Shown in pieces: positions 60,854-64,000 of a stretch of 64,000 bases of DNA. Source of the DNA: Hyphomonas sp. (GTDB lineage Bacteria > Pseudomonadota > Alphaproteobacteria > Caulobacterales > Hyphomonadaceae); assembly GCF_016125515.1 (NCBI RefSeq), contig NZ_WGLO01000004.1:1-64000 (forward strand). The letters are read 5' to 3'. Numbering within the stretch: position 1 is the first letter of the stretch; each line of letters begins with the position of its first letter. A program made the position numbers and the translations under genes. Under the pieces are notes generated by a model, which searched no databases, had not been told where the DNA came from, and was given only the letters and a program-made list of their open reading frames with translations.

Positions 60854-61843
60854 TTATCCGGCCGCCGGCAAATTTTCTTGCACCGCCGCGAGGGCGGCGC
60901 GCAGCACGTCCAGCCCGGCGCCCTTGCGCGGCGCCTGTTCCGACAGGATGCGGCGCCACTGGCGCGCACCGGGCTGGCCGGCGAAGAGCCCGAGCATGTG
61001 GCGCGTCATGGCGTGCAGGCTGGTGCCTTCGGCAAGTCGCGCCGCGATATAGGGTTCATAGGCGCCTACAGCCTCACCGGCCGCGACGGGCGCCCCTTCC
61101 CCGAACAGCTGCGCATCCACCCCGCCCAGGAGGCCAGGGGTCTGATAGGCGGCGCGACCAAGCATGACGCCGTCGAAGGTGTGCAAGTGATCCGAGCACT
61201 GATCGAGTGTCGTAATGCCGCCATTGAGGATGATCGTCAGCCCAGGCCGCCCTGATTTCAGCTCGGCCACAAGTCCATAATCCAGAGGCGGAACCTCGCG
61301 GTTCTCCTTGGGGCTGAGGCCTTTGAGCCAGGCAGCGCGGGCATGTACGGTGAACGCGGAGCATCCAGCCGCCGCCACCTTGTCGATGAAAGTGAACAGC
61401 GTCTCACGGGCCGGCAGATCGTCGATGGCAATCCGGTTCTTGACCGAGACCGGAATGGAGACCGAAGCACGCATCGCGGCCACGCAGTCTGCGACAAGAT
61501 CCGGCTCCGCCATCAGGCAGGCACCGAAAGCACCGGACTGGACCCGTTCTGACGGGCAGCCGCAATTGAGGTTCACCTCGTCATAGCCGAACCCTTCCGC
61601 TATGCGCGCCGCTTCCGACAGTTTGCTAGGGTCCGATCCGCCAAGCTGAAGGACGACCGGGTGTTCGACGGGACCGAACCCCAGGAGGCGCTCCCGGTCA
61701 CCATGGATCACGGCATCGGCCGTGACCATCTCGGTCCAGAGCAGGGCCCGTTTGGTCAGCGTCCGGTGGAAGGCCCGGCAATGCCGGTCCGTCCAATCCA
61801 TCATGGGGGCGACATTAAATCTATGTGCTTGATATTGTAGCAT
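60854..61843 (-). CDS. dusA: tRNA-dihydrouridine(20/20a) synthase DusA
   Basis: FMN enzyme reducing uridines in the tRNA D-loop. VAPMMDWTDRHCRAFHR, EMVTADAVIHGDRERLL, catalytic NCGCPSERVQSGAFGACLM (Cys96), and FTVHARAAWLKGLSPKENREVPPLDY are diagnostic. 329 residues. The first ten residues MLQYQAHRFN are AT-rich and unlike the rest, as expected when an integrated element supplies a new 5' end. The adjacent integrase faces away from it. Confidence 0.93.
   Translation of the reverse strand: MLQYQAHRFNVAPMMDWTDRHCRAFHRTLTKRALLWTEMVTADAVIHGDRERLLGFGPVEHPVVLQLGGSDPSKLSEAARIAEGFGYDEVNLNCGCPSERVQSGAFGACLMAEPDLVADCVAAMRASVSIPVSVKNRIAIDDLPARETLFTFIDKVAAAGCSAFTVHARAAWLKGLSPKENREVPPLDYGLVAELKSGRPGLTIILNGGITTLDQCSDHLHTFDGVMLGRAAYQTPGLLGGVDAQLFGEGAPVAAGEAVGAYEPYIAARLAEGTSLHAMTRHMLGLFAGQPGARQWRRILSEQAPRKGAGLDVLRAALAAVQENLPAAG
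61780..61812. other. Probable attachment-site end of a dusA-integrated element
   Basis: This interval encodes the conserved VAPMMDWTDRHCR region at the 5' end of dusA. dusA-associated integrases recombine near this conserved sequence. Base composition changes abruptly from GC-rich (dusA body) to AT-rich beyond 61813. The other end is outside the window, so the direct repeat cannot be verified. Confidence 0.5.
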
Positions 61844-61878
61844 TTTTCTACTACTTACAGAGAACTAAACGGGAATTC

Positions 61879-61951
61879 GTGTGCAAACATATGCGGAACA
61901 TTGCACACGTTTGTACCCGATTGCAGCTGTCTGTGCACACGGAGCGCACAC
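61879..61951. repeat. Cluster of TGCACAC motifs before the integrase gene
   Basis: GTGTGCAA (61879-61886) and TTGCACAC (61901-61908) form an inverted pair 22 bp apart, followed by GTGCACAC (61933-61940) and GCGCACAC (61944-61951). Likely integrase or excisionase binding sites; inferred from position. Confidence 0.5.
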
Positions 61952-61954
61952 GAA

Positions 61955-63016
61955 ATGTCGACCATTGTGAAACTTCCATCGGGTAGCTGGCGAACTCAGG
62001 TTCGCCGCAAAGGGCGATACGTTTCCCAGTCATTCGCACGGCGACGCGACGCCGAAGAATGGGCGCTCAAGATGGAGCGCCGTGTTGATCGTGGAGAAAG
62101 TGTCTCCAAGACCAGACCCGACCATATAAACACTGTTGCGGATCTCGTCGACCTGCACATCGCTGACATGCTTGAGGTGGGCAAACTCGTCCGACGGTCA
62201 AAAGCCTATTCGCTCGAAAAGCTTCGGGATGATGTCGGCCACCTTCGCATTGAGCAGATAGACCGCGAGGCCATCATTCAGTTTGCCCGTGATCGCCGGT
62301 CCGAGGGTGCCGGACCGGTCACCATCTCGATGGACATCTCGTATCTCAAAACAATCATGCTCCATGCCGCAGCAGTCCACGGCGTGCACATTCCGGTCGA
62401 ACAGGTTGACCTCGCCCGAGCGGCCCTCAGTCGGCTTGGGCTCGTCGGAAAAGGCAAAGAGCGGGACCGTCGACCTACGCAGGATGAACTTGATCGGCTC
62501 ATTGCCTACTTTGAGTCAAATAGTCGCCAGATTTCGCCGATGCACCGGATCGTGAAATTCGCCGTGGCAACCGCCATGCGGCAATCGGAAATCTGTTCCA
62601 TCGAATGGCCAGACGTCGATGAACGCCGGCGGACTGTGACCGTCCGTGACCGGAAGGACCCGCGCAACAAGCTCGGCAATGATCAGCGCGTGCCGCTGGT
62701 CGATCTGACAGGATACGACGCCTGGGCACTCTTGCTGGAGCAGCGCGCGGCGCGTCCGACAAAAGGAAGGATCTTTCCCTATGATGGACGCTCGATTGGC
62801 GCCGCCTTTCGTCGCGCATGCCAGCAACTCGGGATAGAAGACCTGCACTTTCATGATTTACGTCACGAGGGCACAAGCCGGCTTTTCGAAGCCGGTCTAC
62901 AGATCGAGCAGGTCGCCCTCGTCACCGGCCACAAGGACTGGAAGATGCTGAAGCGATACACACATCTCTCTCCGGACTCTATTGTCCGTATGGCGAATGA
63001 CAGGAAACGCGGATGA
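61955..63016 (+). CDS. Tyrosine-family integrase, dusA-associated
   Basis: 353 residues. N-terminal arm-binding part (TIVKLPSGSWRTQVRRKGRYVSQSFARRRDAEEWALKMERRVDRGE), core-binding SAM-like domain (60-160), and catalytic domain with R209 (AMRQSE), the K near 235-240, HDLRH (H300, R303), H326 (GHKDW) and nucleophile Tyr335 (KRYTHLS). ATG 61955 with GGAG 11 nt upstream. Placed head-to-head with dusA, as in the dusA-integrated prophages and islands described in the literature. Confidence 0.92.
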   Translation: MSTIVKLPSGSWRTQVRRKGRYVSQSFARRRDAEEWALKMERRVDRGESVSKTRPDHINTVADLVDLHIADMLEVGKLVRRSKAYSLEKLRDDVGHLRIEQIDREAIIQFARDRRSEGAGPVTISMDISYLKTIMLHAAAVHGVHIPVEQVDLARAALSRLGLVGKGKERDRRPTQDELDRLIAYFESNSRQISPMHRIVKFAVATAMRQSEICSIEWPDVDERRRTVTVRDRKDPRNKLGNDQRVPLVDLTGYDAWALLLEQRAARPTKGRIFPYDGRSIGAAFRRACQQLGIEDLHFHDLRHEGTSRLFEAGLQIEQVALVTGHKDWKMLKRYTHLSPDSIVRMANDRKRG

Positions 63017-63115: not shown

Positions 63116-63137
63116 TTTTATTGAATACGATAAAATG
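63116..63137 (+). promoter_or_regulatory. HipB-type operator A
   Basis: Contains the palindrome TTTATTG-AATA-CGATAAA (63117-63134), one mismatch from TTTAYTG-N4-CARTAAA. First of three copies at exact 50-bp intervals. Confidence 0.75.
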
Positions 63138-63165
63138 GCCTTAGGTCTAGCCGCGTTGAATTGGA

Positions 63166-63187
63166 ATTTATTGTTTTCAGTAAAATG
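63166..63187 (+). promoter_or_regulatory. HipB-type operator B
   Basis: TTTATTG-TTTT-CAGTAAA (63167-63184), fitting the consensus except for a symmetric Y/R pair; ends 3 bp before the -35 element. Confidence 0.75.
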
Positions 63188-63189
63188 CA

Positions 63190-63218
63190 TTGCCCGAAAG
63201 CTGAAAACCGGCTATATT
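63190..63218 (+). promoter_or_regulatory. Promoter of the hipBA module
   Basis: TTGCCC (63190-63195), 17-bp spacer, TATATT (63213-63218), giving a start about 63225, 21 nt before the hipB GTG. Operators B and C flank or cover it. Confidence 0.65.
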
Positions 63219-63237
63219 TACTGTATTCAATAAAACG
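63216..63237 (+). promoter_or_regulatory. HipB-type operator C
   Basis: TTTACTG-TATT-CAATAAA (63217-63234), overlapping the -10 element and the presumed start site; bound protein would block transcription. Confidence 0.75.
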
Positions 63238-63245
63238 GGTGTAGT

Positions 63246-63533
63246 GTGACCAATGACGCTGAAAATGAGCGACTTGCCGAAGTAGGAGGCAGGATCCGTG
63301 CGACCCGTGAGGCGCGTGGCCTGATCCTGCATGAGCTGGCACGCCTCAGCGGCATCAGCGCATCGGCCTTGTCACTCATTGAAACGGGCCAGCGCGACCT
63401 GCGTATCACCAGCCTCTACCGGATCGCCAACGCCTTGCGCATCGGAGCCGGTTACCTGCTCGACGGCCGGGACGAAGAGACCCGAAAACAAGAGACCAAA
63501 CGCGGCGGCTATGATCTCGGAGACTATACATGA
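63246..63533 (+). CDS. hipB: HipB-like antitoxin, HTH protein
   Basis: 95 residues. HTH (about 14-66): VGGRIRATREARGLILHELARLSGISASALSLIETGQRDLRITSLYRIANALRIGAGYLLDG. Short charged tail. GTG start at 63246. TGA overlaps the next ATG by 4 nt (ATGA). Would bind the three upstream operators and neutralise HipA. Part of the dusA-integrated element. The XRE call is certain; the HipB role rests on the HipA partner. Confidence 0.85.
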   Translation: MTNDAENERLAEVGGRIRATREARGLILHELARLSGISASALSLIETGQRDLRITSLYRIANALRIGAGYLLDGRDEETRKQETKRGGYDLGDYT

Positions 63534-64000
63534 GCCAAACCGTGCCGGTCTGGTTTGACGCCTTGCATGTCGGTGAGGTCGCCGTTGGCGAAGATGGCGC
63601 GCTCGGCTTTGCCTATACGCCAGAATGGCTTGCAACAGAGGGGGCGTTCCCTTTGTCGCTTACCCTGCCGCTTAGATCATCCCCCTACCCTTCCGAAGTC
63701 ATATCCCCCTGGCTTGCCAATCTCCTTCCGGAAGAGGAACAGCTTTCCATTCTGACCCGCTCTCTGGGGCTCGCCCGCGCGGACACACTCGCCATCCTGA
63801 ACGAGATCGGCGGTGATACGGCGGGTGCGCTCTCCTTCGGGGTTCCCTCGGAGCGGACGGCATGGACTTATACTCCGCTTACGGACTTCTATGGAATCGA
63901 CGATCCCGAAGCCGCACTGGAACGCCACTTCGATGACCTGCAACGGCGTCCATTTCTTGTCGGAGAGGAAGGCGTTCGTCTCTCACTCGCCGGCGGACAA
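63530..64000 (+). CDS. hipA: HipA-like toxin, N-terminal part, cut by window end
   Basis: 157 codons to the right edge. VPVWFDALHVGEVAV, GALGFAYTPEWL, FPLSLTLPLRSSPYPSEVISPWLANLLPEEEQLSILTRSLGL and NEIGGDTAGALSFG are the HipA N-terminal subdomain blocks, then SLAGGQ begins the kinase core. The Ser/Thr kinase active site lies beyond the window. E. coli HipA phosphorylates glutamyl-tRNA synthetase; the target here is unknown. Partial. Confidence 0.9.
   Translation, partial: MSQTVPVWFDALHVGEVAVGEDGALGFAYTPEWLATEGAFPLSLTLPLRSSPYPSEVISPWLANLLPEEEQLSILTRSLGLARADTLAILNEIGGDTAGALSFGVPSERTAWTYTPLTDFYGIDDPEAALERHFDDLQRRPFLVGEEGVRLSLAGGQ

Follow-up and report, generated by a model that had tools for sequence, protein, structure and literature searches.

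The window, the whole stretch of 64,000 nucleotides analysed here (Hyphomonas sp., contig NZ_WGLO01000004.1, positions 1 to 64,000), closes on a hipBA module whose promoter region carries three copies of an 18-base-pair (bp) palindrome, TTTAYTG-N4-CARTAAA, with distances of exactly 50 bp from copy A to copy B and 50 bp from copy B to copy C. HipBA ranks among the classic toxin-antitoxin systems of persistence, and most of what is known of its higher-order promoter complex comes from Escherichia coli. The elements of the locus are as follows:

63117..63134, no strand: operator A, TTTATTGAATACGATAAA, the distal site, spanning roughly -108 to -91 relative to the predicted +1
63135..63166, no strand: A-B spacer, 32 bp, with no TTG at the place of the -35 in the B-C spacer
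63167..63184, no strand: operator B, TTTATTGTTTTCAGTAAA, ending 5 bp short of the -35
63190..63195, + strand: probable -35, TTGCCC, read from the sequence and from the place of the first TTG after operator B in related loci
63213..63218, + strand: probable -10, TATATT, predicted from the sequence and the spacer table
63217..63234, no strand: operator C, TTTACTGTATTCAATAAA, which covers the final bases of the -10 and the likely transcription start
63246..63533, + strand: hipB, a 95-amino-acid Xre/HTH_3 antitoxin-repressor with a C-terminal GYDLGDY tail, assigned from its open reading frame, Pfam and alignments
63530..64000, continuing beyond the window, + strand: hipA, whose first 4 bp are shared with the end of hipB

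The two genes have the composition of a type II HipBA module, in which a HipA-like kinase with an N-terminal Couple_hipA domain (Pfam, E=1.1e-24) is directly preceded and overlapped by an Xre/HTH HipB (Pfam HTH_3, E=1.1e-11). The window HipB scores 34.6 bits against a cut-off of 71.65 for TIGR03070, the Y4mF-type HipB, and is related to that family without being a member. The full-length window hipA, as found in the genome stretch (L014:3031-4350), encodes 439 amino acids and matches E. coli HipA structures with E=3.8e-39 over residues 7-436; the alignment retains the positions that we take to be Ser150, D309 and D332 of E. coli HipA. Past the window end and 3' of hipA, a further open reading frame (L014:4354-5004) contains, as judged by eye, pieces of a second HipA-like protein, of which it is perhaps a remnant.

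Allowing up to two mismatches, the palindrome pattern has three matches in the 64,000 bases (63117, 63167 and 63217), with one mismatch in operator A and none in B or C, whereas 100 dinucleotide shuffles of the window gave a mean of 0.08 and a maximum of 2; the scan and the shuffles thus confirm the three evenly spaced copies described in an earlier note on this DNA. Across the whole genome the same tolerance yields 10 places, one of them inside the array of a paralogue on contig C7, against 6 for the reversed pattern, and at one mismatch or fewer only the three window operators and a single isolated site on contig C22 are found. The probable -35 and -10 are separated by 17 bp, and operator C ends 11 bp before the GTG start of hipB (63246). 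The promoter geometry proposed in the earlier note needs slight adjustment, since B does precede the -35 but leaves a gap of 5 bp rather than abutting it, and C covers the probable +1 but reaches just two bases into the 3' end of the -10. Several similar palindromes lie over the hipBA promoter and are conserved with hipB, the pattern of an autoregulatory HipB operator array, and the three are very probably operators of the HipB antitoxin.

The extent of this conservation was assessed with HipB relatives drawn from genome contigs, whole genomes, plasmids and viral contigs, with seven of the ten plasmid matches of one search used. From 58 loci, including the window, 11 were dropped before the count (L012, L024, L033, L037, L053, L054, L055, L068, L084, L085 and L086) and seven duplicates at 95% HipB identity were removed, leaving 40 non-redundant loci. 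The 11 dropped loci, most of which are weak or partial HipB matches, have no site at up to three mismatches in the scanned upstream stretch; L013 gave no motif site in the single scan made of it, and L038 was left out of the motif scan. With the family motif TTTAYYG-N4-CRRTAAA at up to three mismatches, 39 of the 40 loci (window included) carry two to four sites, and 73 of the 75 neighbouring distances fall at 48-51 bp (50 bp in 48, 49 bp in 21, 48 bp in three and 51 bp in one), the two exceptions arising from a weak extra site in L060 and a tie of overlapping sites in L041. Over 200 rounds of dinucleotide shuffling, the upstream regions of the 40 loci gave a mean of 5 sites, a maximum of 10 and never a pair at 48-51 bp; the unshuffled regions hold 115 sites. 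Four operators are present in L040 (51/50/50 bp) and L080 (49/49/49 bp), indicating that arrays can grow in steps of one full period, and L063 has a site of sequence TTTATCC-N4-GGATAAA, of which its kin carry similar forms. The earlier note named a lack of conservation of copies and spacing among the closest homologues as grounds for refutation; both are conserved in nearly all of the close homologues examined, and its reading was not refuted on this count. A period of 50 bp is thus no peculiarity of this locus but a genuine and strongly conserved feature shared by a large group of HipBA modules.

This distribution also bears on which protein would occupy the palindromes. A different regulator could bind them and control hipBA as well, for example one belonging to the adjoining island, and two genes directly upstream lend this some substance:

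60854-61843, - strand: dusA, upstream of hipBA
61901-63016, + strand: tyrosine integrase, just upstream of the dusA 5' end and directly followed by hipBA

We take this to be the layout of dusA-integrated islands, and neither the remainder of the window nor that of the contig contains an exact repeat of more than 13 bp from the dusA 5' region (61701-61960). Binding by HipB, for its part, is something that we infer. Against such a regulator, the sites track hipB on chromosomes, plasmids and viral contigs, the annotated neighbours on plasmids vary, and the operator sequence varies with HipB subfamily; we therefore regard control by a protein other than HipB as very improbable.

The two spacers are informative as to what fixes the distance (for this comparison only, the L041 array was fixed by hand at its -36 site after a tie and the weak L060 site was excluded). 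The B-C spacer holds a conserved -35, with the first TTG located 4-6 bp past the upstream operator in 31 of 39 loci, and equal-length B-C spacers from different loci share an identity of 0.364 compared with 0.254 when shuffled. One may thus suppose that the palindromes are HipB operators whose period reflects promoter size only, with operator A an ancient duplicate that has no role, as would also suit its higher mean number of mismatches (1.64, against 1.12 for B and 1.24 for C, in 33 loci). The A-B spacer argues otherwise: it has a TTG at the corresponding place in 2 of 33 loci, is hardly conserved between loci (0.269 compared with 0.252 shuffled, equal-length pairs) and is unlike the B-C spacer of its own locus (0.270 compared with 0.252), yet it measures 30-32 bp in all 33 loci with three sites. 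A sequence that has turned over while its length was kept indicates selection on distance, and a length maintained without a consistent -35 shows that promoter size alone is insufficient to account for the period, which was consequently rejected as a mere by-product of promoter dimensions. The dissimilarity of the two spacers within a locus likewise ruled out tandem duplication of a 50-bp unit.

The same genome supplies an internal comparison. A second hipBA (G000 contig C7:323657-323944, L025) encodes a HipB 67% identical to that of the window behind a three-site 50/50 array of slightly different motif, and cross-talk between the two modules is possible. Two further hipBA-like loci carry ATACGC-N4-GCGTAT sites at 27 bp, as a 27/27 array on contig C4 (L070) and a single 27-bp distance on contig C13 (L074); L070 is placed in the E. 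coli HipA clade, and L074, with a hipA frame of only 216 amino acids, is too short for the tree. Arrays of 27 and 50 bp within one genome indicate that the period belongs to the module and not to the host RNA polymerase. Together with the A-B spacers, they leave an explanation by promoter size alone unlikely, and the spacer result favours a cooperative, protein-protein basis for the period.

The earlier note read the spacing as close to five helical turns and proposed cooperative binding or looping on a single DNA face, a version of which would have HipB dimers aligned at whole turns and looping or polymerising. The period is indeed even, and with 10.0 bp per turn in the bound DNA, 50 bp would equal five turns; L158, which is not of the window family, has a weak third array member at 52 bp. 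At 10.5 bp per turn, however, 50, 49 and 48 bp correspond to 4.76, 4.67 and 4.57 turns, no neighbouring pair stands at 52-53 bp in the 40 window-family loci, and the other period classes correspond to 2.57-2.67 turns (27-28 bp) and 3.81-3.90 turns (40-41 bp). Whole-turn alignment on one face is thus not supported and, with no such pair in the 40 loci, was rejected as quite improbable; the cooperative part of the proposal is retained, and looping is unneeded for the pattern. Nor do we claim a rotational phase common to all classes, for although distances of 27-28, 39 and 49-50 bp would share a remainder of about 0.6-0.8 turn, 40-41 bp lies at 0.81-0.90.

Operator periods were surveyed more widely in 72 HipA (PF13657) loci by a consensus-free scan for two similar palindromes upstream of hipB at distances of 20-89 bp, with 100 shuffles per locus; the positive controls, E. 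coli and five window-family arrays, were recovered. Labels accept pairs reached by at most 3 of 100 shuffles, L088 and L090 being labelled by an array rule though their best pair was reached more often, and for certain loci (such as L095, L100 and L141) the label rests on a distance that was not the best-scoring one. By these rules 20 loci belong to a 27-bp class, seven lie at about 50 bp and six at about 40 bp, and the rest have no period. Because a length rule was used to assign hipB, the frame or start is wrong in L093, in L096 and probably in further loci; with other hipB starts, L087 gives 50 bp and L098 gives 27 and 54 bp. Distances of 40-41 bp between weak palindromes recurred in divergent HipA clades (for example L113, L118, L120, L126, L138, L148, L151, L153 and L154).

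The periods were placed on a HipA tree with 102 rows. All 33 rows of the window clade are at 50 bp, 20 of the 21 in the E. coli clade belong to the 27-bp class, and a third, weakly supported group has 50 bp in seven of 12 and none in five. The 50-bp label requires 5 changes on this tree compared with a shuffled mean of 32.0, and none of 500 shuffles was as low, a clustering that near-identical rows favour. The test was repeated with the best-scoring distance alone as label, significant or not, for which the 83 loci outside the window family divide into 17 at 48-51 bp, 21 at 26-28 or 53-56 bp, 15 at 39-41 bp and 30 at other distances; L110 and L128, both among the 17, lie in other clades and are not above shuffles. 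With these labels, 9 changes account for the 50-bp class, compared with 36.7 when shuffled (0 of 500 as low); of the 23 E. coli-clade rows, 19 are in the 27-bp class, with E. coli itself at 39, and three of 40 window-family loci fall outside 49-50 bp (60, 71 and 73). Ten plasmid loci, of 80 rows listed, were added after the period classes had been seen. Eight of these came from a search with Shewanella oneidensis HipA, and all eight have a best distance of 49 or 50 bp, four of the seven tested against 60 shuffles exceeding every shuffle; the two from a search with the window HipA fall in the E. coli clade, with best distances of 27 and 54. The S. oneidensis HipA (PDB 4PU3) itself lies in a starred set of 13 rows composed of 11 at 50 bp, one other and S. 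oneidensis, such that 11 of the 12 other rows are at 49-51 bp. Period classes of about 27, about 40 (weak) and about 50 bp therefore largely follow HipA clades. The operators within the 50-bp class are diverse, comprising TTTAYYG-N4 in the window family, TTTCCCG-N2 in NGR234 and others, which is a related half-site with a shorter core, and the plainly unlike AATCGA-N10 or AATCC types.

Multiple Hip operators are already published for E. coli, Caulobacter and Legionella. E. coli has four cooperative sites (PMC3920265), which we measured as TTATCC-N8-GGATAA at distances of 28, 39 and 28 bp. The window shares with E. coli K-12 a HipB-type repressor, several palindromes over the hipBA promoter and the hipB-hipA gene order, but its N4 core and 50/50-bp distances differ from the N8 core and 28/39/28-bp distances and set it apart from an E. 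coli-type array. The half-sites are nonetheless similar (TTATCC compared with TTTAYYG in the window family, and TTTATCC in the L063 site), and the half-site is less foreign to E. coli than the earlier note stated. In Caulobacter crescentus, serial inverted repeats (PMC7029023) and three operator sites each (PMC8545095) are reported for hipBA1 and hipBA2, and the accessible text gives no 50-bp period and follows none across families. A further parallel is Legionella pneumophila hipBST, where HipB binds each of three evenly spaced operators by gel shift and the first is an 18-nucleotide inverted-repeat stretch, though with 53-bp gaps, another motif and a split toxin (PMC10653801). The literature search, whose reach did not extend to the 2014 and 2015 HipBA-DNA structure papers, recognised no description of clade-specific operator periods. 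In the E. coli HipBA complex two HipA are packed closely head to tail around HipB, and the HipBST assembly described in the same source is reminiscent of S. oneidensis HipBA on DNA (PMC10627512). The HipBST and S. oneidensis type of assembly on DNA would appear to be more open than that of E. coli, and such openness would be in keeping with a longer period.

Collectively, these results make it probable, in our judgement, that the palindromes are HipB operators, that B and C shut the promoter and that neighbouring HipB2HipA2 complexes set the period by touching one another. Each palindrome would hold a HipB dimer, either free or with two HipA kinases; with B and C occupied, the core promoter would be bracketed and RNA polymerase excluded, and operator A would lengthen the array by one further period. 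Contact of adjacent HipB2HipA2 complexes would fix the period at 49-50 bp in the window HipA clade, against a shorter 27-28 bp in that of E. coli. Repression would scale with the level of HipBA complex, HipA would be held bound and quiet on the array, and loss of HipB would open the promoter.

Several observations weigh against this reading. L068, a clear HipB relative (E=1.2e-19), has no site in its scanned upstream stretch, which speaks against universality, and L010 has a single site among the 40 loci. In the wider survey, 39 of 72 loci have no period by the labelling rule, a count that wrong hipB frames or starts may inflate, and the 40-41 bp class is weak, with most of its loci not above shuffles. 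The window HipA scores nearer to E. coli than to S. oneidensis HipA, and in the alignment it has T and A in place of E. coli P86 and D88, with G22 kept, three positions that we take to be altered in E. coli high-persister HipA mutants; with P86 and D88 replaced, HipA-HipA contacts need not match those of E. coli. Finally, intermediate occupancy has been raised for Legionella HipBST, in contrast to the cooperativity of E. coli (PMC10653801).

For the broader proposal that the period is an inherited HipB2HipA2 ruler, we consider the case evenly poised. Each major HipA clade would have its own period (about 27, 40 or 50 bp) while operator and spacer sequences turn over, and the period would report how neighbouring complexes touch on DNA, compactly in the E. 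coli clade and at a longer distance in the Shewanella and window clades. If this is true, about 50 bp is predicted between the operators of S. oneidensis hipBA. If the period is clade-specific, the model of HipA-HipA contact drawn from the 28-bp sites of E. coli fails for much of the family, and the DNA lengths suited to structures and repression assays elsewhere could be read from genomes; the operator period would also offer an easy way to test the cooperation of toxin-antitoxin complexes on DNA.
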